Shown here piece after piece: positions 13,550-36,856 of a stretch of DNA of 64,000 nt (its first letter is position 1; each line of letters starts with the position of its first letter). The position numbers were made by a program, and so were the translations under genes. This DNA is from Candidatus Nitrospira allomarina (GTDB taxonomy: Bacteria; Nitrospirota; Nitrospiria; Nitrospirales; UBA8639), in the NCBI RefSeq assembly GCF_032050975.1, contig NZ_CP116967.1:4275001-4339000 (forward strand), read 5' to 3'. The notes under the pieces were generated by a model. It saw nothing but the letters and a program-made list of their open reading frames with translations, searched no databases and was not told where the DNA came from.

Positions 13550-15820
13550 ATGTATTTTAATTTTTTCGGGTTACGGACCAAACCATTTAATACCACCCCG
13601 GATCCGGATTTTTTGTATCTCAGTCCCGGCCACAAACAGGCGTTGGGTTCGCTGATTTATGGAATAAAGGAAAAAAAAGGGTTTATTGCTGTCACCGGGC
13701 AGGTTGGTCTTGGAAAAACGACGATTCTCCGCTCGTTTCTGGATCAACCCCATCAACCCAATCAGGAAACCATATATCTCCTCAATCCCAACCTGTCATT
13801 TACAAGCTTGCTCAAGACCCTTCTGCGTGAATTGGGACACACCCCCATTGAGGGGGACGATGCCGAAGTGTTGGAACAACTGCATTTTGTCCTCATTGAA
13901 AAGTATCGAGAAGGTAAGACCGTGGTTCTCTTGATTGACGAAGCGCAAAATATGCCGGTAGACACATTGGAACATCTGCGGATGTTGTCAAACTTGGAAA
14001 CTCCAAAAGACAAGCTCATTCAAATTGTGCTGTTGGGTCAACCGGAATTAGATGCCCTTCTCGATCAGTATGAACTCCGGCAGTTACGGCAACGCATCGC
14101 CGTGCGAGCCATCATTCAGCCCCTCTCCAAACCGGAAAGTTTTGAATATATCCGGCATCGGTTGGACAAGGCCGGCGGAGAAGGGAAAAAGATTTTTACA
14201 AACTCAGCCTTAGGCCTCATTGTTCAGGAAGCCAAAGGGATTCCCCGGCGCCTGAATATTCTTTGTGATAATGCTCTGGTTACGGCCTTTGGGTATAACA
14301 CAGCCTTGGTGACAGCTAAAATTGCCAAAGAGGTGATCGGTGATCTGACAGGCCAACCCGCCCATACACTCTGGAAATTAGTCCCCCTGATTGGTTTGGC
14401 TCTCATCCTTGTCCTTGGGCTGGTCGCACTCCTGCCCCTGACTGAATCAAAATTTTCGGATTTCCCTTCAATAAATAGGATTGGAGAAACGGATACAGAT
14501 AAGGAGAACCCAAAACAGGACCTCGTATCTGATCAAGATCTCCTCAGCGTAGACGAAAATACCCCATCTCCTACTCAAACGGTTCCGACTTTGACCGAAA
14601 GAGCACAGACGTTCTTAACGCAATCAGTATCTGAAGTGTTTGAGAATTTACGAACCCGGGCCGGCTCAAATTTCGAATCAATCACAACTCAAGCCTCCGT
14701 CAACCCACATATCGACTCTGAAAATCAAAAGGATCTCCTGCTTGCCGGAATTCCACCGGATAACTTCCAGCGTGAGGGACCTCCAGTCTCAGATGACCGA
14801 GAGGTACCATCAACCTCAGAAACAGTATTGCCTGGAATCCTTCCCCTCCACCAAGAACACTTCGACCTCTCCACGCAGGAAGACGGTGGAGTGAAGGCTG
14901 AAGCAGACAGTCCGGAAAATGGAGCGAGGCTTAGTCACGTTGAAATGGAAACACCATCTATCCAGTCGGCCCAACAAGAACTGCCTGAGCTCTTAATTCA
15001 GGAAGAAGGTATCGCGACGGCTGAAGCAAATAGTATGGTAGAAGAAAATCCAGTACTTCAGGATGAGGCAAGGATCCCATCTGAGAATGTCAGTGAGGAC
15101 AATCTGGTTCGATTGAGTCCTGAAAACCTCAGCGAGCGTGCAGGACAACCCACCCTAGCCGCTGAGGAACCATTAAGTATCCCTATCCAGGATAATTCTC
15201 CTCCGGTCCCTGTGCCTCATAAACGTGGCGCATCGAAGGAAAGTCCAAGTAAGCCAGAAGTGGTTGCCTCATCTTTACCCGTTACCAGGATCGTGAAAAA
15301 GGGTGACACAATGGCAAAGTTATTGCATGATGTGTATGGGGTCTCTAGTCCATCGACAGTTCAATTCGTTCTTGAACATAATCGGCATATTACAAGCGTG
15401 CGAAGAATGTATCCGGGGCAAAAGATTATGTTTCCGCCCCTACAAAGCGTCGAGAGAAAAAACAAGTTGACTGAGGCAGACGTGACTTTGGTGTCGGTTA
15501 AAGATGAGGGATTACCTCCTTCGAAAGCCATCTTTGCTCACTCTTCCACGCAACTCAAACCGAATGAGGTCAAAAACGAGGCCAAACGCGATTCCCCCTA
15601 TGCGGTGGCTACCGTGCAAGAGGGGGATACCCTAGAAAAATTGATAAAGGTGATTTATGGATCGTCTCATCCGAGCTATGTTCAACGTGTCCTGGAGTAC
15701 AACCCCAACATTCGGAATCCCAAAAAGATCTTTCCAGGGCAGGACATTGCCTTTCCTAAAATTGCTCAGGATGTGAAAACGCAGACAGACCTGGCATCTG
15801 AAGCCAATCCAGCGGAATAG
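13550..15820 (+). CDS. ExeA-type AAA ATPase with one membrane segment and two LysM domains
   Basis: A 756-residue protein. The N-terminal AAA module (about 1-265) resembles ExeA/XrtA-associated ATPases: Walker A GQVGLGKT (50-57), Walker B VVLLIDEAQ with D130/E131, and sensor region VLLGQPEL. A membrane segment follows at about 275-297, then a long acidic, Ser/Glu-rich linker (about 300-575) and two LysM modules (about 579-631 and 684-738), each ending in PGQKI/PGQDI. This topology puts the ATPase in the cytoplasm and the LysM modules outside to bind peptidoglycan or another polysaccharide. It starts a rightward set with a BY-kinase-like and a Wzz gene, suggesting a role in EPS export or its anchoring. 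AGTAGGAAGA precedes the ATG. Confidence 0.88.
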   Translation: MYFNFFGLRTKPFNTTPDPDFLYLSPGHKQALGSLIYGIKEKKGFIAVTGQVGLGKTTILRSFLDQPHQPNQETIYLLNPNLSFTSLLKTLLRELGHTPIEGDDAEVLEQLHFVLIEKYREGKTVVLLIDEAQNMPVDTLEHLRMLSNLETPKDKLIQIVLLGQPELDALLDQYELRQLRQRIAVRAIIQPLSKPESFEYIRHRLDKAGGEGKKIFTNSALGLIVQEAKGIPRRLNILCDNALVTAFGYNTALVTAKIAKEVIGDLTGQPAHTLWKLVPLIGLALILVLGLVALLPLTESKFSDFPSINRIGETDTDKENPKQDLVSDQDLLSVDENTPSPTQTVPTLTERAQTFLTQSVSEVFENLRTRAGSNFESITTQASVNPHIDSENQKDLLLAGIPPDNFQREGPPVSDDREVPSTSETVLPGILPLHQEHFDLSTQEDGGVKAEADSPENGARLSHVEMETPSIQSAQQELPELLIQEEGIATAEANSMVEENPVLQDEARIPSENVSEDNLVRLSPENLSERAGQPTLAAEEPLSIPIQDNSPPVPVPHKRGASKESPSKPEVVASSLPVTRIVKKGDTMAKLLHDVYGVSSPSTVQFVLEHNRHITSVRRMYPGQKIMFPPLQSVERKNKLTEADVTLVSVKDEGLPPSKAIFAHSSTQLKPNEVKNEAKRDSPYAVATVQEGDTLEKLIKVIYGSSHPSYVQRVLEYNPNIRNPKKIFPGQDIAFPKIAQDVKTQTDLASEANPAE

Positions 15821-15881: not shown

Positions 15882-16628
15882 ATGAGTAAAGTATACGAGG
15901 CATTAAAACAGGCATACGAAAATCAACTTGAAGTCATCAAGATCCATCCGCTAGAAGAACGCCCATGTTCGCAACCGGTCGTCGTTTCCAATTTACCTCC
16001 TCTAAAAATGAGGCGGGAGATGGTGCAACTGGAACAACGCCTTTCAGGCCTTCTGCCTGACCCCCAACACAACATCATTCAGTTTATCAGTAGCAGGAAC
16101 CAGGAAGGCGTCTCGACCATTGTTCAGGAGCTCGGAAGAGTCCTTGTAGAAAAACAGGGGAAGTCCGTGTTGCTAGTCGATGGAGATTCTCAAAAATTAA
16201 CGCAACATCAATTCTTTGGAATTCCTCCAAAAATCCCTTTGCAATATCTCATGAGTAACGGGGGAGATTTAGATCAGGCCATTACACCTGTCCTTCATTC
16301 CCGCTTGTTCCTCGCCATGCTCTCTGGAGACAGTGCAGAAACCCTGCAACATGACGTCATTACAAACAAACAGGATTTGTGGAACCATATACGAAAACAA
16401 TTTGACATGATTCTCATTGATACCGCACCAATCGATATCTCTGATGAGGGCTTGGAGTTGTGTGCTGCCGCTGATGGGGTAGTAATGGTGGTAGAAGCAG
16501 AAAAAACGCGCTCACAAGTCATTTCAAATCTCAGAGATCGTATTACACACAGTGGTGGAAACCTCCTTGGCATGGTCTTCAATAAACAGCGTTATTACAT
16601 TCCATCCTGGATCTATTCGAAATTATAA
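15882..16628 (+). CDS. BY-kinase/CpsD-like ATPase with altered P-loop
   Basis: A 248-residue MinD/CpsD-type protein starting MSKVYEALKQA, as in EPS-associated tyrosine autokinases. Walker A' LLVDGD (97-102) and Walker B ILIDTAP (177-183) are present. The P-loop reads SSRNQEGVST where the family has SSxPGEGKST: the catalytic Lys is Val77, and the Pro and first Gly are also replaced. Nucleotide binding is therefore doubtful. The C-terminus has only three tyrosines (238, 239, 245) rather than a long Tyr cluster. It follows the AAA-LysM gene by 61 bases and precedes the Wzz gene, which normally would be its activator. It may act as a structural or regulatory partner of Wzz rather than as a kinase. 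Confidence 0.85.
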   Translation: MSKVYEALKQAYENQLEVIKIHPLEERPCSQPVVVSNLPPLKMRREMVQLEQRLSGLLPDPQHNIIQFISSRNQEGVSTIVQELGRVLVEKQGKSVLLVDGDSQKLTQHQFFGIPPKIPLQYLMSNGGDLDQAITPVLHSRLFLAMLSGDSAETLQHDVITNKQDLWNHIRKQFDMILIDTAPIDISDEGLELCAAADGVVMVVEAEKTRSQVISNLRDRITHSGGNLLGMVFNKQRYYIPSWIYSKL

Positions 16629-16709: not shown

Positions 16710-18191
16710 ATGAGTACACATCCCTCCCAATCTTCACGCCATAACCACGAAATTGATTATTTCAGTATTCGGGATATCCTCACAATACTTTTCAAGCATC
16801 GATATGAGATCATCGCCATCTTCGTATTTTTTACGATTATTTCTTTGATTATTTCGATGAAGATGACGCCGATTTATCGAGCAGAATCAAGTCTTATGGT
16901 GAAAGTCGGCAGGGAGCATATGTACAGCGCAGAGGTAGGAGATCAAAACCCCAAAATGGTTTTTGACCTTGAGACGCTTATTGATCCCGAAATTACCATA
17001 CTGACAAGCCGAGATCTCAGCCGAAAAGTTGTGGAGGCAATTGGGGTGAAAAACCTATATCCAGAAATCTTCGAAGAGAATGAATTAACCATTTCGCCTC
17101 TTGAGGCTGCGTTAATAAATTTCTCAGGAAACCTCTCTGTAACAAGGTCCGGGAAATCGAATGTCATACTCGTGAATTTTGAACACGCCATTCCCGAGAT
17201 AGCTGCAAGAGCGGTAAACTTACTGGGTGAGTTCTGGAAAGAAAAACACCTTGCGATTTTTAGCAATCCTCAGGCCTCTTTCTTGGAAGATCAAGTTGAA
17301 ACATTTCGTGAAAAGTTGGAACAGTCAGAAACCGTTTTACAAGATTTTAAAAGAGAGAATAGAATTTCCTCCCTATTAGACCAGAGGGCTTTGTTACTTG
17401 AACAACGACAAAATTTAGACAGCAGATTGAAATCTAATGAAGATGAAGTAAAGGGATTAGGCTCAAAGATTTTTTCTATCAGGGACCAATTAAAGGATAT
17501 TGCTGAATACATTCCCATCATGACTGTCAACGAACAGCTTCATCAACGAATTGCAGAAACACGAAATGAGTATTTGGCTCTCAAGAGAAAGGAGCAGCAA
17601 TTCCTAGGAAAATATCAGGAGAGCAGTCGAATAATTACCGACATTCGAGAAGAAATAGCTCTTATTCAGGCTTCGATCCAAGATCAGGAAGAGCAACTAA
17701 AAGATCAAGTCACCCGGGGAAGAAACCCTGTCTTTCAGGATCTTCAGCTCGCGCTTCTCAAAACCGAATCTGAAGTAAGCTCTCTCAATACCAAGCAAGA
17801 AGTTATCTTGAGACAAATTAAAGAGGTCGACACTCAAATTGTCCACTTGAATGCATTAGAGAAACAGTTTGATGCCCTTCAACGTGAGGTCCACAAAGAT
17901 CAAGAAAATCTGCGAATGTATGTAGAAAAATTTGAAATGGCCCATGTCTCCACAGAAATGGACAACAGACAGATGGCCAATGTAAGCGTCATTCAGACGG
18001 CTTCTATCCCCATCCAACCCATCAAACCCAATAAGTCTTTTATATTGTGTTTTGGAATTGTGTTGGGGATGTTGAGCGGAACGGCTTGGGCCTTTGTGGC
18101 AGAGTTTTTCAAAGGGGGGTACACACGGCCGGAACAGGCTTCACTCGAGCAGGGAATCCCTGTTCTCACCAGCATTAGATATAAAAGCTAA
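16710..18191 (+). CDS. Wzz/GumC-family polysaccharide co-polymerase
   Basis: A 493-residue inner-membrane protein with the polysaccharide co-polymerase plan: N-terminal membrane helix (about 33-50), a Wzz motif with MTPIYRAESSLMVKVG, a long periplasmic coiled coil (about 190-400), and a C-terminal helix (about 443-463) after the Pro-rich IQPIKPNKS that marks this family. It controls polysaccharide chain length or couples polymerisation to export. There is no fused kinase domain; the separate BY-kinase-like gene is 81 bases upstream. It is the last gene of the rightward EPS trio and converges on prsT. Confidence 0.9.
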   Translation: MSTHPSQSSRHNHEIDYFSIRDILTILFKHRYEIIAIFVFFTIISLIISMKMTPIYRAESSLMVKVGREHMYSAEVGDQNPKMVFDLETLIDPEITILTSRDLSRKVVEAIGVKNLYPEIFEENELTISPLEAALINFSGNLSVTRSGKSNVILVNFEHAIPEIAARAVNLLGEFWKEKHLAIFSNPQASFLEDQVETFREKLEQSETVLQDFKRENRISSLLDQRALLLEQRQNLDSRLKSNEDEVKGLGSKIFSIRDQLKDIAEYIPIMTVNEQLHQRIAETRNEYLALKRKEQQFLGKYQESSRIITDIREEIALIQASIQDQEEQLKDQVTRGRNPVFQDLQLALLKTESEVSSLNTKQEVILRQIKEVDTQIVHLNALEKQFDALQREVHKDQENLRMYVEKFEMAHVSTEMDNRQMANVSVIQTASIPIQPIKPNKSFILCFGIVLGMLSGTAWAFVAEFFKGGYTRPEQASLEQGIPVLTSIRYKS

Positions 18192-18309: not shown

Positions 18310-20688
18310 TTATGAGCTTATGTCCGCCAACACCTGACGGACCGTTTCCATGTCCTCCGATTCCGATGACCGATTCATCGCTTTTTCAAAATACTGTTTA
18401 GCCATTATTCGATCACCTGCCTTGAGGGTCACCATTCCCAAATGATAGTTAAGCAATCCATGATCGGGTGCCTTACTCAATGCTTTCGTTAATACCCTGG
18501 TTGCCTCCTCATTGAGACCTATTTTGAAATACACCCAGGCCAATGTATCAAGCAGAAACGGGTTCTGCGTTCTGGCTTCAAAGTTCCGGGTCAAATCAAC
18601 CGCGTATGCCAAACTTTGGACATCCCCCTTTTCTTCTGCCAATAAGAACGCTAAATTATTCGCTGCCAGAACATCATGGGGGGAATGATTCAACACCAAT
18701 TCGTACTGCCGAATCGCCAGGTCAATTTGTCCATTGGCTTGATAAAAGGAGGCTAATGCCTTCAACAAAATGGGAGATTGGACATGGATGGTTAACCCCT
18801 CATTTAACATATCGATCGCTTCTCTTTTTCTGCCCAGAGACCAACTTACCATGGCCCAATCTTTCCAGGGCTCAACCCACATGGGATTTCCCTCCATTTG
18901 CTTCCGATACGCAGAAAGGGCAGACGCCCTATCATGCAATTGAACGAACACGGCACCTAATAGCCCCCATGCAAATGGATGGCCGGAATGGCTTCCCACT
19001 AGCTTCTGGAGATAATCCCGTGCGTGCTCTGGCTGTCGTTGCTCGAGATACGCATGGATTAACGCTGCCAAAGGAGCCATCGCATGAAGCTTGGCTTGTT
19101 GAGCCCCAGTAAAAGCCTGCACAGCGAGATCCCATTGCTGAAGTCCGGAAGCGAGAATTCCTTTTGCTAGGTCCACCTGATAGCCAGACCAGACTGATTC
19201 CTCGAAACGGGCAATCATTCCATCTCCCTCTGCCCATTGCCGTTGAGCCAATTTTATCTGGAAAAGCGACCATGCGGCTTCAGGATGAGTGGGAACCACT
19301 TGAAGAATGGATTCCAGATATTGTTGAGCCTTTTCTAAATGGCCCTGTCGAGCAGAGAGGCGGGCCAACGCCGAAAAGACGTCAAGCTGTCGGGAGTTGA
19401 GCGCCACAGATTTTTCCAAATTTTCCTGATTCAGCTCAAACTCTCGGGCCAACATATGCGCCTGCCCCAATACCCTCTGAATATCCCTATTATTAGGCTC
19501 ATCTCTTAAGACAATTCGAAATGTTCCGACCGCCGGGCTGCTCTGGTTTTGCGCTACATTCAATTCGCCTTTTAGAAGCAACGCATCAAAATGACCGGGG
19601 TACTCTTCCAACACGCTTGCCAAGCGGATCTGCGCTGCTCTTGGATTCTCCTCAGCAACATCAAGCTTGGCCAATTCAACTTCCGCCTTTATGCCCTGCT
19701 CACTCGTCTCCGCTTCAAGAACAATCGCTTCGTACATCTTACGGGCCTTTTGGAATTCTTGAATATGCTCAAAATGCGCACCCAAAAGAAACCGGAGGGT
19801 AAACGAGTGAGGTAAGACTTGAAGCGACTCTTCCAGCAAAGCTTCCCGCTGTGAGCTATCAGCAAACATAACCAAACTCTTCCAACGCCGCTCATCGTTG
19901 GGATCCAGCGCCACCCCTTCACGTAGAAGGGCCAAGACTTTGTCGGGCTTCCCCAGGTGCCGATACAGCCCGGCCAGCTTGTCGCGATGTGCATACCCAC
20001 GCGGTTCTTTGGCGAGCAATTGGAGATAGATAGCTTCCGCCTTGTCAAAAGCCTTCATCCCGATCGAGATCGTCGCCAAATAATTCAGGAGATCGACATG
20101 ATCGGGGTGGACCTTCAATCCTAATTGGAGAACCGATCGAGCCTTGTCCAATTCACGATTGGCCGAAAAAATCGCGGCGAGCATCAACAGAATATTGGAA
20201 TCAGTGGGAAGTTGCTCAAGAAGAGAGTCTGCTTTTGTAAGGGCCCTGGAGTGCTCTCCGCGGAGAAACCACACACAGACTTGAAGAGTATGCCCAAAGA
20301 CATCATGAGGATCACGGGCCAATATGGAATCAGATAAGCCCTCCAATTCTTTGATGTCTTTCGCGGCTAAATAAAATCGCGCCAATCGTCCCACAGCCGC
20401 CTGGTGAGTAGGATCTAATTCGACGCCCCTCGCATACTGACGAAAGGCTTTTGGCCAATTGGCCTCTTTCTCCGAAACTTGCCCAGCCAGGAAATACACA
20501 TGAGGGTCCTGGGGATCAATCCTGAGGGCATTTCGCAAGGCCACCCTGGCTTGTGGAAAATTATCTTCCTGAATGAATTTTTTAGCCTTGGTCACGAAAG
20601 AGGCTTTCCGTTCTTCCGCACTTCCGCATCCATACAGAATGATGACAGAGAGAAAAAGATTGCCCCATTTGGCCAAAGGAATGGACAT
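18310..20688 (-). CDS. prsT: PrsT-like TPR lipoprotein of PEP-CTERM/EPS loci
   Basis: A 792-residue protein with a lipoprotein signal (VIILYGC, lipid Cys21) followed by TPR repeats along nearly its whole length, such as ARVALRNALRIDPQDPHVYF and ALRLDP-like units. The size, lipobox and repeat count match the TPR protein PrsT found beside exosortase (XrtA)/PEP-CTERM exopolysaccharide genes. Its likely place is the periplasmic face of the outer or inner membrane, acting as a scaffold in polymer secretion. The assignment rests on architecture plus the neighbouring Wzz, BY-kinase-like and PEP-CTERM genes. It is divergent in orientation to the upstream EPS trio and converges on it. Confidence 0.78.
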   Translation of the reverse strand: MSIPLAKWGNLFLSVIILYGCGSAEERKASFVTKAKKFIQEDNFPQARVALRNALRIDPQDPHVYFLAGQVSEKEANWPKAFRQYARGVELDPTHQAAVGRLARFYLAAKDIKELEGLSDSILARDPHDVFGHTLQVCVWFLRGEHSRALTKADSLLEQLPTDSNILLMLAAIFSANRELDKARSVLQLGLKVHPDHVDLLNYLATISIGMKAFDKAEAIYLQLLAKEPRGYAHRDKLAGLYRHLGKPDKVLALLREGVALDPNDERRWKSLVMFADSSQREALLEESLQVLPHSFTLRFLLGAHFEHIQEFQKARKMYEAIVLEAETSEQGIKAEVELAKLDVAEENPRAAQIRLASVLEEYPGHFDALLLKGELNVAQNQSSPAVGTFRIVLRDEPNNRDIQRVLGQAHMLAREFELNQENLEKSVALNSRQLDVFSALARLSARQGHLEKAQQYLESILQVVPTHPEAAWSLFQIKLAQRQWAEGDGMIARFEESVWSGYQVDLAKGILASGLQQWDLAVQAFTGAQQAKLHAMAPLAALIHAYLEQRQPEHARDYLQKLVGSHSGHPFAWGLLGAVFVQLHDRASALSAYRKQMEGNPMWVEPWKDWAMVSWSLGRKREAIDMLNEGLTIHVQSPILLKALASFYQANGQIDLAIRQYELVLNHSPHDVLAANNLAFLLAEEKGDVQSLAYAVDLTRNFEARTQNPFLLDTLAWVYFKIGLNEEATRVLTKALSKAPDHGLLNYHLGMVTLKAGDRIMAKQYFEKAMNRSSESEDMETVRQVLADISS

Positions 20689-23935: not shown

Positions 23936-25153
23936 TCAAGAGACACGTTTTATGAGATCAGCAAATCGCCGCGCCAAGACCCGGCGGTCGAAATGCTCCA
24001 GCACATAGCGTCTGCCACTCGCCCCCAGCACTTGGCATAAAGCCGGGTCGCGAGACAGGTTTAATACTTGGCTGGCTAATTCTGATGAATTTTCCGGTTC
24101 AATGCAGATCCCCCCTCCCGCTGAGATGACAAGTTCAGCGCTCTCCCCTTCCACGCCAAGAATGACCGGCCGCTCCATGGCCATACTCTCAAATATCTTG
24201 GAGGGAATAACCGTCTTGAAAAGCACGGATTTTTTGAGCAGGACAAGACTCACATGCGAAAGAGACCAGAGTTCCGGCATTTTATCCTTGGGCTGCTGAT
24301 CAAGCATCACGACATTGAACAATTTCATCTCATCCCGCATGCCCACAAGCCGACGCCGGTCGGCGCCATCGCCGACAAGAAGAAACACAATATCCTTCCA
24401 CTCGCTCAGCGCTTGGGCAGCCTCCAGGATCGTTTCTAGGTGGTGGGCCATACCATGGGTTCCGAAATACGAAGCCACGAACTTTCCCTCAAGTCCTAAT
24501 TCATGTGCGAGGCGAGTGCGGTCTCTGTTGGGCTTATATAAGGTGAAATCCACCCCGTTTTTAATGACCGTCACCTTTTCAGGGAGGATACCTTTCATGC
24601 ATATATGCGACTTAAAGGCATCAGTGACGGCCACGATGTGATGGGCATGGCGATAGGCAAATAACTCCAGACCTTCTAACAACCGAATCACTGGTCGATT
24701 GGTGATCGCTCCGACCGCCACGATAGACTCAGGCCAGAGGTCACGAATCTCAAGTATCCATGGGGCACGCTTGAGGCGACTGACCAAATAGCCTGCGAGC
24801 CCGTTGAAAAATTGCGGAGAAGTGGAAAGGACCACATCACACCGTGAGAGAAATGGGGAAACAAGCACAGCTGCAACCATATAGGACAGGTAGTTGAGTG
24901 TCCGCTTCACAAACCCTTCGTTGGCCGTCACATAAGTCCATAACCGAATCACCTGAATGCCATTCCGGTTTTCACGGTGAAAGAGTTTGTTGCGATAGCC
25001 CTCATAGACAATGCCGCGTGGATGGTTGGGTGCGCAGGTCACGACCGTGACCGAATGACCATCATTGACCCATTGCCGGCAGTGTTCAAAAGTGCGTGAG
25101 GCTGGAGCATTGACCTCTGGCGGGAAATAATGTGACAAAAACAAAATCTTCAC
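23936..25153 (-). CDS. Glycosyltransferase family 4 (WcaI/WbuB-like)
   Basis: A 405-residue GT-B transferase beginning MKILFLSHYFPPEVNAPASR, as in WcaI/WbuB-type enzymes of polysaccharide synthesis. RDLWPESIVAVGAI and the donor-site segment PSKIFESMAMERPVILGVEG (retaining GT4 E-x7-E region) are clear. It transfers a sugar from a nucleotide donor to a lipid-linked acceptor in the cytoplasm. The start is a GTG with AAGGG upstream. It is the last gene of the leftward polysaccharide run, 9 bases after the heparinase-like gene. The sugar is not predictable. Confidence 0.9.
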   Translation of the reverse strand: MKILFLSHYFPPEVNAPASRTFEHCRQWVNDGHSVTVVTCAPNHPRGIVYEGYRNKLFHRENRNGIQVIRLWTYVTANEGFVKRTLNYLSYMVAAVLVSPFLSRCDVVLSTSPQFFNGLAGYLVSRLKRAPWILEIRDLWPESIVAVGAITNRPVIRLLEGLELFAYRHAHHIVAVTDAFKSHICMKGILPEKVTVIKNGVDFTLYKPNRDRTRLAHELGLEGKFVASYFGTHGMAHHLETILEAAQALSEWKDIVFLLVGDGADRRRLVGMRDEMKLFNVVMLDQQPKDKMPELWSLSHVSLVLLKKSVLFKTVIPSKIFESMAMERPVILGVEGESAELVISAGGGICIEPENSSELASQVLNLSRDPALCQVLGASGRRYVLEHFDRRVLARRFADLIKRVS

Positions 25154-25162
25154 GGCATGCCC

Positions 25163-26896
25163 TTAGATAGACTCGGAGTTCTTGGTAATTCGGTAGGTAA
25201 GAGACAGGGGTAATGGACCGGTACGGGTCAAGACAATTACACTCTGGTTGCACGCCACACCAAATTCAGGGAAGAACCATCCCTGTTCGACCTTCATATC
25301 GCCTGACCCAAGGTTCTCAATGCAAAGGAGTGCAATGCCGTCCTTGTCAGATATTCTGACTGTCTGACCCATCTGAGTGGCCTGGCACTCAGAATGTAAA
25401 TGAACATAGCTGTCTATTTGGTGAGTCCCTCCCCCTTGAACTTCATCAGTAACCTTCCAGGACGAGGAACCATCGAACTCAATTGACCGTTGGTGAATCA
25501 CCTTCCCGGGAAGCCGGGCGTATCCATTATGGGCACCTTTAAATTTCACGTGCCCATCGCCCGAATGTGTTAAATGCGCAAACAACGGATTGGCCCGCCG
25601 AGCCACGCGAAACACTCCCCAAACTTCGGATTGCTCCTGCCCGTCCACCACCACAGTATTATGTGCCTTTGTACTGCGGGCATAGGCGCGTTGGGGGCTG
25701 GGCTCATAGTCAAACACGCCGCTGTCTACAATAATGCGGCGACCATTGAGGGATAACTCATAACTCAATGTATCGCAATGGGCATGGGCAGGATTATAGG
25801 CAGGCCCAATAGGTCCGCAATCAATGACCACCATATCGCTTCCCTTGCGTATGACATAATATCCGCTCTCACGTTTGGCACAAGAGAAAAGACCTGCTGT
25901 AGGTGCCGGCACATGGTACCCCATGACCTCCCTGGCGTACTCAAAAATTCGTGACGGAGACAGGGCAATCTTGAATGCAGAATCGTTATACAATGGGATG
26001 TCTCCATCAGGGAGACAAATGTCATGTAAAAAGTTTAGAGCCTGCACCGTCTTCTCCCTCACATGATCCATTTCGGGAAAGACCATGGCTTGTCTGGAAG
26101 ACATCATCAGATTTAAGACATCTACGTAATCCATGACGCTGATCGAATGGTACATAGGGCTTCGCTCGAAGTGCCCGCCATCCGCCAGAAACTGTTCGTC
26201 GATTTCCTCGCGCAAAATCTTTAAACCCTTCTGCAACCACCGGTCGGCATCCCGACCTTCAAAAAACATTCCGGCAAAAAATAGGGCAACTCCATTTTTC
26301 AGATAATGGTTGGCCAGAAAGTGGTATTCAATATTGCGTTCCAGCCATAGCACCTGCCGGTACAAATTCTTCAGCCATTCGGCCTTAAGTACTCCAGAGG
26401 AAGACTCTGGCATTGTCCCCTTGTCCTCTTCCCGGTTATCAATGGAGTCCTGGGACAATGAAAGGAAGAACTTCACCCAATTTACAATCCGCAAGGATGC
26501 CGCATAGGGTTCCCAGGCATCCGGCGTTCCAGATGGATTCTGCTCAATCCAATCCGAGATGACGTTGCACCGGCTTTCGACGGAACGACGAGGATCTTGG
26601 AGATAATCGAAATAATGCAGGTTGTAGCGCCAGAGTTTTGATCGGTCCCGGCACACCCAATCCATCTGGTCCTCATTAAACTCCACGCCTTGATTAAGAA
26701 AAACGAAACGGTAATCTCCTCCAGACGATTGTAAGACGGAAGGACTCGTCTTAATGGCAATGTTCGGTCGCCTCACAATCTGCTTTCGGGCGTGCTGAAA
26801 GGAAATCTGTGGAACAACCCGACGGAAGAAGAGATAGGCAAGTTGAGAAATCTTCAGATAGGCCAGAGTCCTGGCATACAGCAAGATACGGTTCAT
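25163..26896 (-). CDS. Heparinase II/III-like (alginate lyase family) protein
   Basis: A 577-residue protein with an N-terminal alpha-barrel domain (heparinase N-terminal type) and a C-terminal beta-sandwich. The diagnostic active-site region is NPAHAHCDTLSYELS followed by IIVDSGVFDYEP and KAHNTVVVDGQEQSE, with the conserved His, Tyr and Asn. Such proteins are often encoded in EPS loci, where they may cleave or edit the uronic-acid-containing polymer. No clear signal peptide is seen; the N-terminus ILLYARTLAYLKISQLAYLF is amphipathic. It sits between the DUF4091 gene and the last GT4. Polysaccharide lyase activity is inferred. Confidence 0.85.
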   Translation of the reverse strand: MNRILLYARTLAYLKISQLAYLFFRRVVPQISFQHARKQIVRRPNIAIKTSPSVLQSSGGDYRFVFLNQGVEFNEDQMDWVCRDRSKLWRYNLHYFDYLQDPRRSVESRCNVISDWIEQNPSGTPDAWEPYAASLRIVNWVKFFLSLSQDSIDNREEDKGTMPESSSGVLKAEWLKNLYRQVLWLERNIEYHFLANHYLKNGVALFFAGMFFEGRDADRWLQKGLKILREEIDEQFLADGGHFERSPMYHSISVMDYVDVLNLMMSSRQAMVFPEMDHVREKTVQALNFLHDICLPDGDIPLYNDSAFKIALSPSRIFEYAREVMGYHVPAPTAGLFSCAKRESGYYVIRKGSDMVVIDCGPIGPAYNPAHAHCDTLSYELSLNGRRIIVDSGVFDYEPSPQRAYARSTKAHNTVVVDGQEQSEVWGVFRVARRANPLFAHLTHSGDGHVKFKGAHNGYARLPGKVIHQRSIEFDGSSSWKVTDEVQGGGTHQIDSYVHLHSECQATQMGQTVRISDKDGIALLCIENLGSGDMKVEQGWFFPEFGVACNQSVIVLTRTGPLPLSLTYRITKNSESI

Positions 26897-27003
26897 GAGG
26901 AATATCAGTCAGGTCAAAAGTTTAAAAACATGCACGGTCCCCGAAGGGGCCCGCTGATCTTGAAGATGTGCGCAACACGTGGCATAAAAATAGTCTTGGA
27001 CCG

Positions 27004-29247
27004 TTACGGTTGAGAGGAAACACCCAAAAGAGTTCGGCGGACCGCCTCAAGATCAGCAGATTGCCAGCTCTCGAGTGTTTCCGGGTTTATAGTGCCCAAA
27101 GATCTTTGAACGCGCTGGCTTTGCGCAGCGAGTAGTCTATAGTCTTCGAGGCCCTCTCGGAAGGCCTCCCAGCGACGGCTGCTGACAATGCCATCTTCCG
27201 ACTCATAGACCACGGCAAAGTCTGAGCGGTACCCATCAATATCAAGCCAGGCTGAGCTTCCCGTCGTATCACTATATGACCAGAACCCCACGCCCTTTGC
27301 CCCATAGTGCCATGCCCACCATCCAAGCATTCGATATTCATGCAACGGTGAATTAAGCTTCGCTGGTGACTTTGGGCTACTAATAAGCCACCATTCCTTG
27401 CGGAGCCCCTTATAAAATTCACCCAAAGGACCATGGAGGGCTGGTATTTGAGGTTGCCAGAAGTCTACCAGCGGGTCTAGATTTCGGAGATCGGACATCT
27501 CGATAGGCGAACTTCGTTGTACAATGGGATTCGCGTAAATCTGTATAGACGAATTCCACCTTTTAACTGTTTCAGCAAAAACCTTCACCAATTGCAGACC
27601 CGTGCGATTCGGCTCATCGGTAGGATAAAAGGCCCATCGGTCCGGAGGCAGTCCTTTGGCAGAGAGATAGGCAAATACTTTTCCAACCCATGCAAGCAGT
27701 CGCTTTTTCGCAGCAGGATCAATCGTCTGTTTGGTTTTTGAAAACCCGAGGGGATTCCTTCCTGCATCCCAACCCATATAAAGGAGTAACATCCCATGTT
27801 GTTTGGCCAGCTCCACATTATTTACAAATTGACCTCCCTCTCTATCTTCCCAGGTGCCATCGAGGGCAAAGCCAGGAATTTCTTCCGGTTGCGTCACGAA
27901 AACATTGATACCGTGATCCACCAGATCACGGACAGCAGCTTCGGGATTATGGAAGATTGGCATATCTGAAGGGTACGCCCAATTGATCGCGCGTAAAGGT
28001 CTAATGGGGGTGACATCAGTGGCCGTGACGGTTGCGCTGCCGGGCACCGAGATAACACTACTGCTACTTTCAAAGCGAAGTTCGAAGCGATGAGTGCCGG
28101 GGCCAAGTGCCGTCAAATTCACATCCAGCCAAATATAGCTAGGGATGCCAGGCTGGACGGTCAACAGTCCACCGTCGTTCAAGGGAACAAGTGGATCATA
28201 AACACGCTGTCCATTAGCCGCCACAACGGGTCTTACCTCAAATAATCTTACAGATCCCGCAGGAAGGCCTTCTATCGTCGCGCGCACCCCACTTGTGACG
28301 ACCGCTTCGCCTACGGCAATCCCTAGGCAAGCATTCTCGCGCTCCTCCGTGTAACCTCGTATCTCCAGCGCCGATAAGGGAATGTTGATGTGTTCGCTCG
28401 CCTGAGCGGGATCGATCGCCGCCCAGGGATCCTGCACCCATGCTCGCATCGCCCAGCGTTCCAACGGCAAGGCCATTTTCCTGGATTCTGATTCTATGGC
28501 GTTTAACAGGCCTTGGTGAGTCCGGTGAGTACTTTCCTTCAATGCCGTCTCGACATTGGGAACGATTGCTGTCTGAGCAGGCATTCGGCCAACTCCAGAC
28601 GGGCGCCACTCCACCTCGTCCAAAAACAAAAATTTGCCAGTGGCATGCACGACCATAATCAAGGCGCCAGTGGCTGCACTGATGTCGATATCCAACCAAT
28701 GCGTCTCCTTGTCCGGAAGCTTCCCTGAATCCGGCGCCAGCGACCCGACGAGTTGGAGATTGTTCCTCCTGTCCCGCGCATACACATCAACTTGCCTTGG
28801 CACATCTACACCTGCATACAAACCTTTCACGGTATGCACCCGCAACGTGCCGGCTTTGGGGGACTGCACCGAACTTCCATCATCAAGACGAAGTCGTATG
28901 GTGACTGGCGCGCGTGCGGACCATCCCACGGCCTCTTTTCTCTCCCACATGGGAAATGATGTGATTCTCCCGTCGGTAAGCTGACGAATGTCGCCTTCAT
29001 CTGTAGAAAGGGAGTAGTTAGGTTTCTGCCCAAATTCCATGACAGTCAGCACGCCTGCCACGGCGTTGTCCGTAATACCGCTCAACACCATGATACTCAT
29101 CACCATGTACAGAGACAGGATATGGAGCCGACTTCCCTGAAATGTTATTCTTTCATATTGGCCAGGCTTCACGTCATCCGCAAATTGTCTGCAGTCCATC
29201 GTGGAAATTTTTCCTTCATTATTCACGGACAAAGTTGCATACCGCAT
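27004..29247 (-). CDS. DUF4091 glycoside-hydrolase-like protein, membrane anchored
   Basis: A protein of about 747 residues. A hydrophobic stretch LHILSLYMVMSIMVLSG near residue 45-60 may be a late signal or anchor. The middle has beta-sandwich regions, and the C-terminal half carries the DUF4091 barrel: AINWAYPSDMPIFHNPEAAV, WAFYPTDEPNRTG, VDFWQPQIP, WWAWHYGAKGVGFWSYSD and WEAFREGLEDYRLL. DUF4091 proteins resemble glycosidases; the TDEP acidic pair could be catalytic. Start 29247 has GGGAGGGTGAACCC before it; a longer start at 29289 would overlap the upstream GT4. It lies within the polysaccharide cluster, so it may edit the polymer or its attachment. Confidence 0.78.
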   Translation of the reverse strand: MRYATLSVNNEGKISTMDCRQFADDVKPGQYERITFQGSRLHILSLYMVMSIMVLSGITDNAVAGVLTVMEFGQKPNYSLSTDEGDIRQLTDGRITSFPMWERKEAVGWSARAPVTIRLRLDDGSSVQSPKAGTLRVHTVKGLYAGVDVPRQVDVYARDRRNNLQLVGSLAPDSGKLPDKETHWLDIDISAATGALIMVVHATGKFLFLDEVEWRPSGVGRMPAQTAIVPNVETALKESTHRTHQGLLNAIESESRKMALPLERWAMRAWVQDPWAAIDPAQASEHINIPLSALEIRGYTEERENACLGIAVGEAVVTSGVRATIEGLPAGSVRLFEVRPVVAANGQRVYDPLVPLNDGGLLTVQPGIPSYIWLDVNLTALGPGTHRFELRFESSSSVISVPGSATVTATDVTPIRPLRAINWAYPSDMPIFHNPEAAVRDLVDHGINVFVTQPEEIPGFALDGTWEDREGGQFVNNVELAKQHGMLLLYMGWDAGRNPLGFSKTKQTIDPAAKKRLLAWVGKVFAYLSAKGLPPDRWAFYPTDEPNRTGLQLVKVFAETVKRWNSSIQIYANPIVQRSSPIEMSDLRNLDPLVDFWQPQIPALHGPLGEFYKGLRKEWWLISSPKSPAKLNSPLHEYRMLGWWAWHYGAKGVGFWSYSDTTGSSAWLDIDGYRSDFAVVYESEDGIVSSRRWEAFREGLEDYRLLAAQSQRVQRSLGTINPETLESWQSADLEAVRRTLLGVSSQP

Positions 29248-29251
29248 GGGT

Positions 29252-30295
29252 TCACCCTCCCGAATAAAGTTTGTGACAATGATGGACAAACTCCTCGGTC
29301 CATTTTCCGGACGAAAAAGCCTTTGCGGCTTCCCGGGCGCCGCGTCGTAGGGAAGTTAACTGCTTCGGATTGTCACGGAGCATTTCCATTGCCACGACAA
29401 GTTGAGAAATCTGGCCCGGTTCAATGAGGATCCCGTTTCGTTCGTCCACGATTTCCGCTATCGCACCAATGCGGGAAGCGATGACCGGCATTCCAACAGT
29501 AAAAGCTTCCAGAATCACGCCTGGGTACCCCTCAGTCGGAATGCGGCTGGGAAGGACAAGAACGTCATAGCCGCCCAGTACCGTTGGAACCTCTTCAGGT
29601 AAGACTACTCCACAATATTTCGCTCCACTCTCGGCAAAGTCGGCTTCACCGACATTCCCAGTTAAGGGGCCGTACACGTCGACTGTCACATTCTTGACTG
29701 CCTTTGATGCCTGAATCAGATTATCCACACCCTTAATTTCGCTCACATGGCCGAGGTACACAAAATGACGTGCCCCTCGTTCATTCATTTCTTTGATCGG
29801 GGGCAACGCGGATGCCAAGACACGACTATTGGAGTACCAGTACACCGGTTGTGAAGAGATAGCACTGAAGAATTTAACGGAACGATGCGTTTCAAATAAG
29901 ACAATGTCCGCCGCCAGCACCGTATGACGAAAAATCCAACGGGCAGGCGCTGAAGCTTGAAGGTACCAATCAGGATAAAATCCGCCAAAGCCTCTGAAAA
30001 TCCAGGGCCGCCGGAAAAGGCAACACACTACCGCAAGGAGAGGACCGAAGAGCGCAGCACCAAGAATCGATGCATGGAATCCGACAACATCAATCTTACG
30101 GATCCGCCGCAACAGTGCCGAAAGATTTCGCAACGCGTGAATAAGGTTTTTCATTGTTGTGCGTTCAATCCGCGTCGTATTGATGACCTCAACCACCAGA
30201 TCTTCCCGCTTACCTAATTCGCCGACGAGCTGACCAAATAGAACCGTTGCACCTCCCAGCGGTGGCGGCAAAGGTCCGACAAGAAGAATTTTCAT
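29252..30295 (-). CDS. Glycosyltransferase family 4
   Basis: A 347-residue GT-B transferase starting MKILLVGPLPPPLGGATVL. The acceptor domain contains VVGFHASILGAALFGP, and the C-terminal donor domain has YLGHVSEIKGVDNLI, VYGPLTG and SRIPTEGYPGVILEAFTVGMPVIAS, with the GT4 E-x7-E-like region. It adds a sugar to the growing lipid-linked oligosaccharide. The next gene downstream starts within 5 bases of its stop, so the two are coupled. The specific sugar is unknown. Confidence 0.88.
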   Translation of the reverse strand: MKILLVGPLPPPLGGATVLFGQLVGELGKREDLVVEVINTTRIERTTMKNLIHALRNLSALLRRIRKIDVVGFHASILGAALFGPLLAVVCCLFRRPWIFRGFGGFYPDWYLQASAPARWIFRHTVLAADIVLFETHRSVKFFSAISSQPVYWYSNSRVLASALPPIKEMNERGARHFVYLGHVSEIKGVDNLIQASKAVKNVTVDVYGPLTGNVGEADFAESGAKYCGVVLPEEVPTVLGGYDVLVLPSRIPTEGYPGVILEAFTVGMPVIASRIGAIAEIVDERNGILIEPGQISQLVVAMEMLRDNPKQLTSLRRGAREAAKAFSSGKWTEEFVHHCHKLYSGG

Positions 30296-30389
30296 AACGT
30301 ACGTTTGGTTACCAAGGATAGACAGTAGGGGAAGGCCGGATGGATGCCTTTACGGATCTTTTTTGCAGTAACACCTCCTATGAGGCAGC

Positions 30390-31607
30390 TTAACATTTCC
30401 AAACCCTGTTCGCCGGACTTCCACCATAGAGCAGGCGATACTGATTAAGATTCGCCGACATGGTGAGTCTGTTTTTAGCGAAACGAATGGCCTTGTCTCT
30501 CAGACTTCCAAAATTGTTTTGATGGATGAATTGGAGGACTTGATCGGCAATATCGGTTTTCTCATCCAAAAGCATTCCTACACCGGCTGCTGGAAGCATA
30601 TCACTGTAATCACCAATCCCCGGTGTGAGGATGACCGGAAGTCCACAGGCTAAGTATTCGCCTACCTTCACCGGGCTCGCCACATTATTGACGGGAGTGT
30701 CGTGCCGCAAAATGATACCAATGTCGGCTGCTGACAAATACCGGTGGACGTCTTGATGGGCACATCCCCGAACAAAAGACTGACCCGCCGGGAACTGGAC
30801 CGTCTGAAGTTGGCCAGTCACTTCCGCTTGGCTTGTGGTTAAAAACAGTGCTTTACACCTATTATCAGCCGAACAGACCCTCTTAAACAGGGATATGATG
30901 TCACCAATTCTTTGCCAGGCACTCATTCCGCCTGAGTAACACAACAGAATATCATTCTGATGGAGATGAAGCGACTGGCGAATCTCACTCCGAGCGTTCA
31001 AGTCAAAGAAAAATCTGGCTTCGTTAAAACATGACGGGATCACGGTCACATCATGACGGCCGATCTTATCTTCCAGATATTCCTTGAGGTTCTCTGATAC
31101 CGTAGTGAGGCGATCAGCTCGGCGGCCTTGCTGCAACTCAAGATGGGAAATGAACCGGGATTTCATCGTTGAGCCACTCGTGAGTTGTTTCTCCAACCCA
31201 ACCAGTCCCCGGACATCAAAGATCGATATCGCATCGAGCTTTCGCGCCAACCTTCGGGCCCACATCGACCCGATAAACGACCGTGCATAGACATGGGTAA
31301 TACCGGCACCTGCGAGTTCCGAGCGCATGGAGGCATAGACCTGCCAGCAGGAGTGCCAGTAACCCCAAGCACCGGCATGCGGCAAAAGAACAGGGAGCAC
31401 ATCAGCCCGTACATGATATTGCGCGGCGATCACTGCAACAGCCTCCTGCGCGCGCGATGGTGTAATTTCAGCACCTGCAAAACGACACGAATAGCCTTCC
31501 TGATTCAAAAACGATGCGACCGAGAGAACCTGCGCATGCAAGATCGCGCTATCAAGCGCTGGCCATTCTGGGACAAAAAACAGGACACTCTTGCCTGACC
31601 TATTCAT
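30390..31607 (-). CDS. Glycosyltransferase family 4 (divergent)
   Basis: A 405-residue GT-B-type transferase. The N-terminal half has THVYARSFIGSMWARRLARK, and the C-terminal half has LLCYSGGMSAWQRIGDIISL, LSAADIGIILRHDTPVNNVA and SPVKVGEYLACGLPVILTPG, the usual sequence of donor-binding elements in family 4 (GEYLA-type). It is probably a cytoplasmic polysaccharide glycosyltransferase. There is no strong ribosome binding site at the ATG; the 40-base gap after the O-antigen ligase gene is consistent with one operon. Confidence 0.83.
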   Translation of the reverse strand: MNRSGKSVLFFVPEWPALDSAILHAQVLSVASFLNQEGYSCRFAGAEITPSRAQEAVAVIAAQYHVRADVLPVLLPHAGAWGYWHSCWQVYASMRSELAGAGITHVYARSFIGSMWARRLARKLDAISIFDVRGLVGLEKQLTSGSTMKSRFISHLELQQGRRADRLTTVSENLKEYLEDKIGRHDVTVIPSCFNEARFFFDLNARSEIRQSLHLHQNDILLCYSGGMSAWQRIGDIISLFKRVCSADNRCKALFLTTSQAEVTGQLQTVQFPAGQSFVRGCAHQDVHRYLSAADIGIILRHDTPVNNVASPVKVGEYLACGLPVILTPGIGDYSDMLPAAGVGMLLDEKTDIADQVLQFIHQNNFGSLRDKAIRFAKNRLTMSANLNQYRLLYGGSPANRVWKC

Positions 31608-31646
31608 TCGTTACCAATCTGCTTGAGGGGTTAATACGGCCATTTG

Positions 31647-33092
31647 TCAAGGCCCCGGTGCATACCCGACAGACTTTGAACCTTGCCCTACAAGTGAAAT
31701 GGCGGCATACACTCCCAAGGCCAACCAAAAAAGTTTTACATCCTGATACGTGACCGTTGCAATCATGAAACAGAAGCCGAATACACCAGACAGCGCGACG
31801 CGACTCAGATGTCTGTCATTTGACTCGCCGGCTATCACAGCCCCCTTTCGTAGTTTTCTGCCGGCAAAAATGGCCACGACGATAACTGCGAGAAAGAGCA
31901 CAAATCCCACCACTCCCGTTTCGACAAGAACCTGTAAATAGCTATTATGAACGGCAACATGATACCGATCATAAAAAGCCGACATGCCATTCCCGAAAAT
32001 CGGGGAATCAAACCACATTTCCAGTGCCTGTTTCCATAATGTAAATCGTCCCGTTGCGCCCTCGTTGACGGCATCCCCAATACCAAAAATGCGCTTATTC
32101 AGAGCCGGAATGAACATAACGGCCATGGCGAGGGCTCCGGCAAAAACGCCAACTGGAATGATTCCCTTTACAAGGTTTCCACGCAAGAGATAAAGCCCCA
32201 CCACGAGAGTAGTCGCGAGGAAACCGCTTCGGCTATATGTGCCCACACATCCAATCGCCGTCATGCACGCAACGACAGTCCAAAATAGCTTTCGTACCCC
32301 CGCACTTGCACTGTGAAAGGCCAGCGCGAGGGCCAGGGGAAATACCAGACCCGTGCTGGTATAATTCGGCTCTTCACCGGGCAATACGAATCGCCTTCCG
32401 CTCTCCCCGCCATGAAGAATATTGATGCGGTCTTCGAGACCGAACTGATCATGAATATGCCTGGCTTCCATCATGCGATAGAGCACCGTCTGATCTCCAA
32501 GCATGATATGGATAGCCTTAATAACCGTGGCCAGTCCGGCCACGATTGCCCACCACATCAGTATTCGGCCGAGATCAGCGGGTGTTTTCACCGTCAGGAT
32601 CAGAATCACGAGTAACACAACCCCTTCGATATACTTCAAGTAGTACGGAAGAGCCAAACTCATGTTTTCCGAGAAAACTGTTTGCACCGCCCCATATAAG
32701 ACGAACGCCCCGGCAGCGAAAAGAACCTGGCTTGAACGGAGCAAAAGGTTACCAAGGGAAGCGGGATTTAAAACCACGGTTAATCCCAAAGTCATTGCCA
32801 CCACAACGGAGAAAACATTCGGAACGCCCACAGTCACCGCGGGAGCGTAAAAGATGAGCAGCAAGATGAGCAGACCATTACCGGGATTTCGAACGATTAG
32901 GATCGTGGTCAATGCCAAAAATGCTGCAGATCCGACAAATCCAAGGCTCAGGACCGAGCACATGAAAACCAGTCCCCACAACGCCAGCAGCATTGCCATG
33001 TCCAGCCAAGCAAAACCTGAATAGATGCCCCCATCCAACGTTGCTAAAACCGTATCCTTATGCCAAGGCTGACTTTCGTGGGAAAATCCCAT
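31647..33092 (-). CDS. O-antigen ligase / Wzy-type polymerase
   Basis: A polytopic inner-membrane protein with about 10-12 hydrophobic helices. The Wzy_C core AVHNSYLQVLVETGVVGFVLF and the preceding periplasmic loop with FDSPIFGNGMSAFYDRYHV are typical of O-antigen ligases and Wzy polymerases; these join or polymerise repeat units on the periplasmic side. ATG 33092 gives 481 residues; an alternative TTG start at 33158 adds 22 residues. Neither has a good ribosome binding site. Its place next to Wzx and WecA supports polymerase as the more likely role. Confidence 0.85.
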   Translation of the reverse strand: MGFSHESQPWHKDTVLATLDGGIYSGFAWLDMAMLLALWGLVFMCSVLSLGFVGSAAFLALTTILIVRNPGNGLLILLLIFYAPAVTVGVPNVFSVVVAMTLGLTVVLNPASLGNLLLRSSQVLFAAGAFVLYGAVQTVFSENMSLALPYYLKYIEGVVLLVILILTVKTPADLGRILMWWAIVAGLATVIKAIHIMLGDQTVLYRMMEARHIHDQFGLEDRINILHGGESGRRFVLPGEEPNYTSTGLVFPLALALAFHSASAGVRKLFWTVVACMTAIGCVGTYSRSGFLATTLVVGLYLLRGNLVKGIIPVGVFAGALAMAVMFIPALNKRIFGIGDAVNEGATGRFTLWKQALEMWFDSPIFGNGMSAFYDRYHVAVHNSYLQVLVETGVVGFVLFLAVIVVAIFAGRKLRKGAVIAGESNDRHLSRVALSGVFGFCFMIATVTYQDVKLFWLALGVYAAISLVGQGSKSVGYAPGP

Positions 33093-33179
33093 ATTCAATA
33101 TGTCTTGTAATAGCCTACTCTTAATTTCCCATAAACTATCACCTAACTCAGTTGACAAAAATTTATTCGACAGGGCAGA

Positions 33180-33392
33180 TCAGACAATGGGATCCTGTTT
33201 TTGAACCAGAACAAAATTTTTACGTAATATGAGGCTCGTTGGATTTAACCCCCGACAATGCGAGACGGTAAATAGGAAACGTAGTAGATGAATGCCAACA
33301 TATTCCACACCATTAGGATACTTTCTTTCGCACCAATACCTCTTGAACATGCGTGAGACAAAAAGCAGGGCCATCGTGTGCCTATAAATCAT
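33180..33392 (-). CDS. Possible small ORF coupled to the acyltransferase gene
   Basis: A 70-codon frame whose ATG overlaps the acyltransferase stop (ATGA at 33389-33392), which suggests coupling. The product is basic with a short hydrophobic start (ALLFVSRMFKRYW) and no recognised domain. It could be a small protein, the remnant of a longer gene, or a chance frame in the gap before the O-antigen ligase gene. Confidence 0.3.
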   Translation of the reverse strand: MIYRHTMALLFVSRMFKRYWCERKYPNGVEYVGIHLLRFLFTVSHCRGLNPTSLILRKNFVLVQKQDPIV

Positions 33393-34036: not shown

Positions 34037-34076
34037 ACTTATTTCCTCTTTTCTCTACCAATCTTCATTCACATAA

Positions 34077-35120: not shown

Positions 35121-35131
35121 TGGGAGCCTTT

Positions 35132-36583: not shown

Positions 36584-36856
36584 GGATTACACTTGCAGAC
36601 TTGTTACCGGAGCGATGAAAATGTGATCGGCATGCCCCCTGCCTCCCACAAAAGACCCGTACCAGAAACCTTCAAATTAATTTTCAGTGTCTTCCGAAAG
36701 ATGTTGGTCTACCGGAAAGGTCGACTCCATGAAACAATTGGACCATATTCATAGTATTTTGTCCTCTTTGACCTTGTCCAGGAAATGGACAATAGCCTCT
36801 CCATGCCTGCCACTTTAAGGCAGCGAATTGAGGTCAGCGCAGAGGCTTTATATTTT

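Follow-up and report, generated by a model that had tools for sequence, protein, structure and literature searches.

A LysM-bearing ExeA-like ATPase encoded with a polysaccharide co-polymerase and a predicted tyrosine pseudokinase in Candidatus Nitrospira allomarina

Architecture of the ATPase-LysM protein

A stretch of 64,000 nucleotides from Candidatus Nitrospira allomarina (contig NZ_CP116967.1, positions 4,275,001 to 4,339,000; hereafter the window) encodes, at positions 13550-15820 on the plus strand, a 756-residue protein that joins an ExeA-type AAA+ ATPase domain through one predicted membrane helix and a long acidic linker to two LysM modules. It is the first of three plus-strand genes, being followed by genes for a bacterial tyrosine kinase-like (BY-kinase-like) protein and a Wzz-like protein with intervening gaps of 61 and 81 bases. 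An earlier note, made from the DNA sequence alone, had described the ATPase gene with this layout and had placed it in an exopolysaccharide (EPS) context; the open reading frame indeed exists as described, and Wzz, BY-kinase-like and EPS genes lie nearby. The informative part of this context, on which the note was silent, is that the run of genes also encodes a polysaccharide co-polymerase (PCP) of the 2b type and a BY-kinase-like protein devoid of the Walker A lysine. ExeA-like ATPases, LysM modules, PCP-2b proteins and BY pseudokinases are all known kinds. Judging from searches of open-licence PMC articles, the novelty appears to lie in a LysM-bearing ATPase lineage that goes together with a PCP-2 operon of the pseudokinase type.

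The ATPase domain was recognized by the Pfam model AAA_22 on residues 41-171 (96.4 bits, cut-off 27), and its motifs are intact, with GQVGLGKT at residues 50-57 as Walker A and VLLIDE at residues 126-131 as Walker B. Residues Gly50, Gly53, Gly55, Lys56, Thr57, Asp130, and Glu131 were invariant across 42 aligned rows (alignment A3). Chains of ORC/Cdc6, MuB, and TnsC were the top Foldseek matches of the modeled domain. A single hydrophobic segment was predicted at residues 270-303, with a maximal 19-residue Kyte-Doolittle mean of 3.0, in line with the one membrane helix of the earlier note, and the topology predicts that the LysM part is periplasmic. The linker, given there as 270 residues long and acidic, measured 274 residues (300-573) with 51 Asp and Glu versus 19 Lys and Arg residues and was predicted to be disordered. 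In the AlphaFold2 model, the ATPase domain (residues 1-270), the helix (residues 273-304), and both LysM modules were mostly confident, and the linker was of low confidence.

Both LysM modules past the predicted helix could be confirmed, albeit by different means. Pfam recognized a single LysM stretch, on residues 688-734 within module 2 (29.5 bits, cut-off 20.9). The NCBIfam model PRK11198, which represents a LysM protein, matched two stretches; module 1 was deduced from this double match, its likeness by eye to module 2, and its AlphaFold2 fold. Residues 578-628 and 683-736 were both modeled as beta-alpha-alpha-beta folds with high predicted local distance difference test (pLDDT) values. PG_binding_1 (PF01471) was absent from the 20 Pfam families that matched at E ≤ 1 in the scan of the ATPase-LysM protein.

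Full-length orthologues covering at least query residues 1-754 were present at 72-82% identity in six genomes of the same genus, and a named Nitrospirota metagenome-assembled genome (locus L124) encodes an orthologue at 75% identity. The ATPase and LysM blocks were conserved in the orthologue alignment, while the linker drifted. The possibility raised by the earlier note that sequencing might split the gene was thus not borne out, and the full-length orthologues in congeners also ruled out a strain oddity or a sequencing fusion. The search for the same architecture in related genomes, which the note had proposed, found the layout kept in the congeners and recurring beyond the phylum.

The lysine-less partner and the gene neighborhood

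The own genome (4.55 Mb, one contig) holds a paralogue at 4461272-4462636 on the minus strand. It comprises 454 residues with the same ATPase domain, one membrane helix, and one LysM module and is flanked by genes for a 492-residue Wzz-like and a 258-residue BY-kinase-like protein. Two outer membrane polysaccharide export (OPX) genes adjoin its module, and the product of one carries a fused Wzz-like coiled coil. A second relative in the genome (L003) is a 275-residue ATPase without membrane helix or LysM that adjoins a secretin-like protein; the names MshM-like for this ATPase and secretin-like for its neighbor were both given by eye.

The model of the window's BY-kinase-like partner (mean pLDDT 84.9) matched the kinase domains of Wzc, Etk, and CapAB in Foldseek with a best E value of 9.5e-13 and ended in a short helix. 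Partners were collected with the window's partner as query, giving 38 aligned rows that include those of the window, the own-genome paralogue, the LysM-less ATPase of L137, and the cut ATPase of L200; L198 was added as a 39th row. The partner of L171, which came from a profile search, and that of L162, an over-long 764-residue open reading frame with a BY-kinase part lacking the lysine by eye, stayed outside the 38-row set. At the position of the Walker A lysine, the 38 partners carried Thr in 17 cases, Val in 11, Ala in 3, Cys in 3, Ser in 2, and Asp in 2 but never Lys, the residue being Val in the window's partner and Thr in that of the paralogue. The lysine was kept in all 35 control BY-kinases, which came from the loci of a single phylum that matched TIGR03015 and TIGR03018 best. 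The P-loop was otherwise mostly retained, 22 of the 39 rows having EGTST or EGVST. Of the same 39 rows, 36 have the Walker B Asp and 25 the first Asp of Walker A'. A C-terminal tail of the form [IV]Pxx-hydrophobic-[YFRL] ended 38 of the 39 partners (the exception being L198) versus none of the 35 controls, and the last 30 residues contained on average 2.2 Tyr in the 39 rows versus 4.8 in the controls. Compared with the BY-kinases Wzc and CapAB, the partner has the same fold but is devoid of the Walker A lysine and the Tyr cluster, and it is predicted to be a BY pseudokinase.

A closer control was provided by the 20 next matches of the partner profile outside the module (L258-L277), in which the lysine position was occupied by Lys in 16 and Arg in 3 cases, L260 being unaligned. 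L260 itself has Thr at this position, ends in the same tail as the partners, and has no LysM ATPase; pseudokinases of this type are thus not confined to the operon described here. The idea of a relocated catalytic lysine, known from WNK-like kinases, was discarded. The residue five positions before the lost lysine was Arg in 14, Gln in 8, Lys in 4, His in 4, Asn in 2, and Gly in 2 of the 38 partners, i.e. basic in 22 when His is counted, and was too variable. Another likely pseudokinase group was noticed in L262, L269, and L274, which are Wzz-BY-kinase fusions that end in an IPxWIY tail and whose Walker A lysine is replaced by Arg (GEGRS).

Pairs of a pseudokinase and a PCP-2 protein have precedents in EcpK/EpsV of Myxococcus and HfsB/HfsA of Caulobacter, which the main text of PMC12004946 proposes to work independently of phosphorylation. 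According to the same text, EcpK is essential for EPS and contacts EpsV directly, and how the PCP is driven is left open. The window type shares with these pairs a stand-alone BY-kinase fold without catalytic residues, a C-terminal helix replacing the Tyr-rich tail, and a PCP-2 protein without kinase domain. It differs in keeping most of the P-loop with the lysine mostly changed to Thr or Val, in its YIPxxIY-like tail, and in the Walker B Asp, whereas EcpK is described in that main text as having no Walker motif at all. Moreover, the pair is accompanied here by a gene for an AAA-LysM protein, and the words LysM and AAA do not occur in the main text of PMC12004946. As stated there, the kinase docks onto a C-terminal tail of the PCP both in CapAB and in the model for EcpK/EpsV. 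By eye, a PE...LGLPVLxSI-like tail was seen at the C terminus of the Wzz-like protein in most module loci.

The association was counted for 58 ATPase open reading frames with at least 2 kb of sequence on both sides, 36 with and 22 without LysM. LysM was called with our own profile at E ≤ 0.05, and the calls for L138, L159, and L176 were weak. A BY-kinase-like neighbor was found for 34 of the 36 LysM-bearing versus 2 of the 22 LysM-less ATPases, and 32 of these 34 neighbors had no Walker A lysine, the exception being L171. In 31 of the 36 cases, Wzz and a lysine-less BY-kinase-like gene were both present, in one (L176) the latter alone; the remainder consisted of the tandem pair of L171, with a lysine-bearing BY-kinase on the other strand, and two loci (L124 and L152) without any BY-kinase. 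Among the 22 LysM-less ATPases, L137 was accompanied by Wzz and a lysine-less BY-kinase-like gene and L198 by Wzz and a lysine-bearing BY-kinase, and 20 had no such neighbor. The C terminus of the L137 ATPase resembles a worn LysM module. Where 4 kb or more of upstream sequence was available, the locus contained an OPX gene for 29 of 37 LysM-bearing versus 1 of 20 LysM-less ATPases. When a profile of the partner was run against 196 genomes of the class, 14 matches reached at least 244 bits, the next being a contig-end fragment at 140 and the following ones about 115. Thirteen of the 14 strong matches share the locus with a LysM ATPase, 12 adjoining it (one, G271:C63, counted through coordinates common with L192) and one (G014) with Wzz in between.

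Coordinates of the genes and domains are collected in Table 1. A secreted-looking protein, about 385-411 residues long, in which an OPX domain (Poly_export) is fused to a Wzz-like coiled coil was observed next to a normal OPX gene at L281:9139-10338 (own genome 4464138-4465337) and in L126, L146, L148, L154, and L192; L129 has a 386-residue Wzz-like open reading frame in the place of this fusion. In the EPS cluster, 25163-26896 matched heparin-sulfate lyase models below their cut-off. The models for exosortase (TIGR02602, PF09721) and PEP-CTERM (PF07589) gave no match in the whole genome. The product of 20989-21615 has a hydrophobic C-terminal tail, PPVALLVGSGIIGLIVIARR, that is PEP-CTERM-like by eye. 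Despite this tail, a PEP-CTERM/exosortase reading was rejected since no model matched in the genome, and with the ATPase scoring below the TIGR03015 cut-off the PEP-CTERM setting considered in the earlier note was not upheld.

Table 1. Features of the ATPase-LysM locus (window coordinates)
Feature	Position	Strand	Basis or remark
AAA+ ATPase - membrane helix - acidic linker - 2 x LysM protein, 756 residues	13550..15820	+	open reading frame with ATG start
Cytoplasmic AAA+ domain, residues 1-270	13550..14359	+	Pfam, motifs, AlphaFold2, Foldseek
Predicted membrane helix, residues 273-304	14366..14461	+	hydropathy, AlphaFold2
Acidic linker, about residues 305-577	14462..15280	+	composition, low model confidence
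LysM module 1, residues 578-628	15281..15433	+	NCBIfam, likeness by eye, alignment, AlphaFold2
LysM module 2, residues 683-736	15596..15757	+	Pfam, NCBIfam, AlphaFold2
Stand-alone BY-kinase-like protein, 248 residues, QEGVST loop, short C-terminal helix YIPSWIYSKL; predicted BY pseudokinase	15882..16628	+	
PCP-2b polysaccharide co-polymerase, Wzz and GNVR domains, 493 residues, without kinase domain, C-terminal PEQASLEQGIPVLTSIRYKS	16710..18191	+	
PrsT-like tetratricopeptide repeat protein adjoining the module	18310..20688	-	269.5 bits, cut-off 312.2
EPS cluster: glycosyltransferases, heparin-lyase-like, O-ligase-like, WecB, WecA-like transferase	23936..40198	-	

Distribution and points against a fixed association

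TIGR03015, the model for XrtA/PEP-CTERM ATPases, matched 337 of 395 genomes of the phylum at E ≤ 0.001 and 47 of the 395 above its cut-off. LysM was found in 1 of 90 phylum loci (L034-L123, picked from the best TIGR03015 matches) and PG_binding_1 in 40 of 68 scanned ATPase members. LysM is thus rare among TIGR03015-type ATPases at large, in agreement with the statement of the earlier note that ATPases of EPS/PEP-CTERM loci usually lack it. The arrangement is not singular: ATPases ending in LysM were found in no fewer than four phyla, Nitrospirota, Thermodesulfobacteriota, Hydrogenedentota, and Pseudomonadota. Those in Thermodesulfobacteriota belong to Geobacterales, Syntrophobacterales, Syntrophales, and others, and named Geomonas and Geomobilimonas strains are among the carriers. 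The scan of named genomes used an alignment of LysM-type sequences, and the loci analyzed were the best 80 of at least 323 confirmed ones, so this sample leans towards the LysM lineage.

In a tree of 187 ATPase rows, all 54 LysM-bearing rows fell on one side of a branch together with 10 LysM-less rows, and the LysM label changed 4 times versus a mean of 47 after shuffling. The congeners L004-L010 and L016, the short rows L019-L024, the loci L124, L153, and L200, and ATPase open reading frames of less than 250 residues were left out of this tree. Five LysM-less ATPases of the same tree group (L130, L131, L132, L150, and L168) carry a motif PDPxxx(I/V)(D/E)(W/F)LLxK near the C terminus.

Several observations weigh against the export role proposed below. 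The branch of the LysM group was poorly supported (Shimodaira-Hasegawa-like approximate likelihood ratio test value of 9), and with four label changes the association of LysM with the partner goes back to few independent events, so its strength is overstated by exact tests. L171:5462-12198 contains two tandem LysM ATPase genes, and a lysine-bearing BY-kinase (GEGKT) and a Wzz-like gene lie on the other strand. G287 has a strong partner match without an adjoining LysM ATPase. Conversely, G358 encodes OPX, Wzz, and a lysine-less BY-kinase with no ATPase of this kind within 15 kb, and Caulobacter vibrioides, which has HfsAB, was not among the control genomes matching TIGR03015; pseudokinase/PCP pairs therefore exist without such an ATPase. 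In L124 and G002, the partner is absent or decayed and the ATPase gene still open, which may mean either an independent function of the ATPase or a recent loss of the partner. Finally, most partners have an otherwise preserved P-loop and a Walker B Asp, so they may still bind nucleotide. A universal rule that the pseudokinase needs the LysM ATPase, or the reverse, was ruled out by G358, G287, Caulobacter, and L171.

L124:2721-10944 and L244 (G002:C102) lack the EPS cluster found after the ATPase gene in the window; their ATPase gene is intact, its next large neighbors look by eye like resistance-nodulation-division (RND) efflux genes, and the BY-kinase-like gene is decayed in G002. L279:6849-10942 encodes two OPX proteins, Wzz, and a lysine-less BY-kinase with an IP tail, and no ATPase of this kind was found in 15 kb.

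Proposed role and alternatives

The wall-binding domain of ExeA is PG_binding_1 (PF01471). With ExeA/GspA, the window's protein shares a cytoplasmic AAA ATPase domain, a single membrane helix, and a periplasmic wall-binding domain (PMC4098917, available text), membrane helix, periplasmic location, and wall binding being predicted here. It differs by LysM instead of PG_binding_1, by the long acidic linker, and by Wzz, BY-kinase-like, and OPX neighbors. The available text of PMC4098917 describes ExeA as a peptidoglycan-binding protein that forms multimers on this polymer and is required to assemble the secretin. When this plan is joined to the EcpK/EpsV precedent, a role in polysaccharide export suggests itself: the protein may be an ExeA/GspA-like AAA+ factor, anchored in the wall, for the assembly or cycling of a Wzx/Wzy-type export machine that works without phosphorylation, and it would serve this machine rather than type II secretion. 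We put the probability of this reading at roughly 0.5. The cytoplasmic ATPase would sit at the inner membrane beside a split co-polymerase made up of the PCP-2b ring and the BY pseudokinase, both of which it may contact, the linker would span the periplasm, and the LysM modules would hold peptidoglycan. Wall binding and oligomerization would gate ATP binding and hydrolysis, and the ATP cycle would assemble, position, or cycle the PCP ring and the outer membrane OPX channel through the wall. The ATPase would thereby stand in for the tyrosine phosphorylation cycle that drives Wzc. None of the open-licence PMC articles listed in literature searches described, in its title or the opening part of its abstract, an AAA-LysM protein from an EPS operon.

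A further-reaching version of this proposal is tentative, and we consider it possible at best. It sees a third way for Wzc-type export, in which a PCP-2 ring would be driven by a wall-gated AAA+ ATPase of the same operon instead of tyrosine autophosphorylation. The former kinase would persist as a conserved adaptor with its GEG[T/V]ST loop and YIPxxIY tail, ATP turnover would have moved to the AAA-LysM protein, and export would be coupled to peptidoglycan contact.

A less probable alternative to the assembly factor is a mere anchor. The protein would then be a spatial landmark, or a tether keeping the export complex at the wall, and the ATPase would act as an oligomerization switch that drives neither assembly nor PCP cycling. 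A long linker of low model confidence that ends in one or two LysM modules would suit tethering, a sequence search of the PDB matched the LysM protein TsaP, which belongs to the type IV pilus machine, and the fold matches include MuB and TnsC, for which PDB titles mention ATP-bound filaments. The invariance of Walker A and B in the 42 rows, however, goes beyond the needs of a passive tether.

The classical ExeA role, in which the protein would help to assemble a secretin for type II secretion or a pilus and its placement in an EPS locus would be secondary, appears improbable. The layout is the same as that of ExeA (PMC4098917, available text), and the genome does contain a further ATPase of this kind next to a protein that looks secretin-like by eye. 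That ATPase, L003, is however a different, short paralogue without membrane helix or LysM, its AAA domain being homologous at 39% identity, and LysM ATPases mostly adjoin Wzz, BY-kinase-like, and OPX genes. The neighbors named by models in the window were BY-kinase-like, Wzz, PrsT-like, and EPS genes, with no type II secretion gene among them and no search aimed at GspB made.

Equally doubtful is a sensor of EPS or its chain length, whose LysM modules would bind the exported glycan instead of peptidoglycan and report to the ATPase to tune polymerization. LysM binds peptidoglycan and chitin via N-acetylglucosamine (PMC4004799, available text), and WecB and the WecA-like transferase in the locus make amino sugars in the polymer plausible; against this, LysM recurs across phyla whose polymers probably differ. 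That the protein is an ordinary TIGR03015-type XrtA/PEP-CTERM ATPase carrying LysM by chance is likewise improbable: the homologous ATPase domain matched TIGR03015 on residues 1-267 with an E value of 2.6e-78, but its 263.2 bits stay below the cut-off of 324.5, the genome has no exosortase or PEP-CTERM match, and the LysM ATPases cluster on the tree and have a different gene context.

The operon thus offers a concrete candidate for the energy source or the wall anchor of phosphorylation-independent export, with a conserved ATPase and a likely wall anchor. As this candidate is present in several phyla and in named Geomonas and Geomobilimonas strains, the question becomes open to genetics. If the assembly role holds, the ExeA plan, in which a membrane AAA+ protein carries a wall-binding domain, would gain a use in polysaccharide export.

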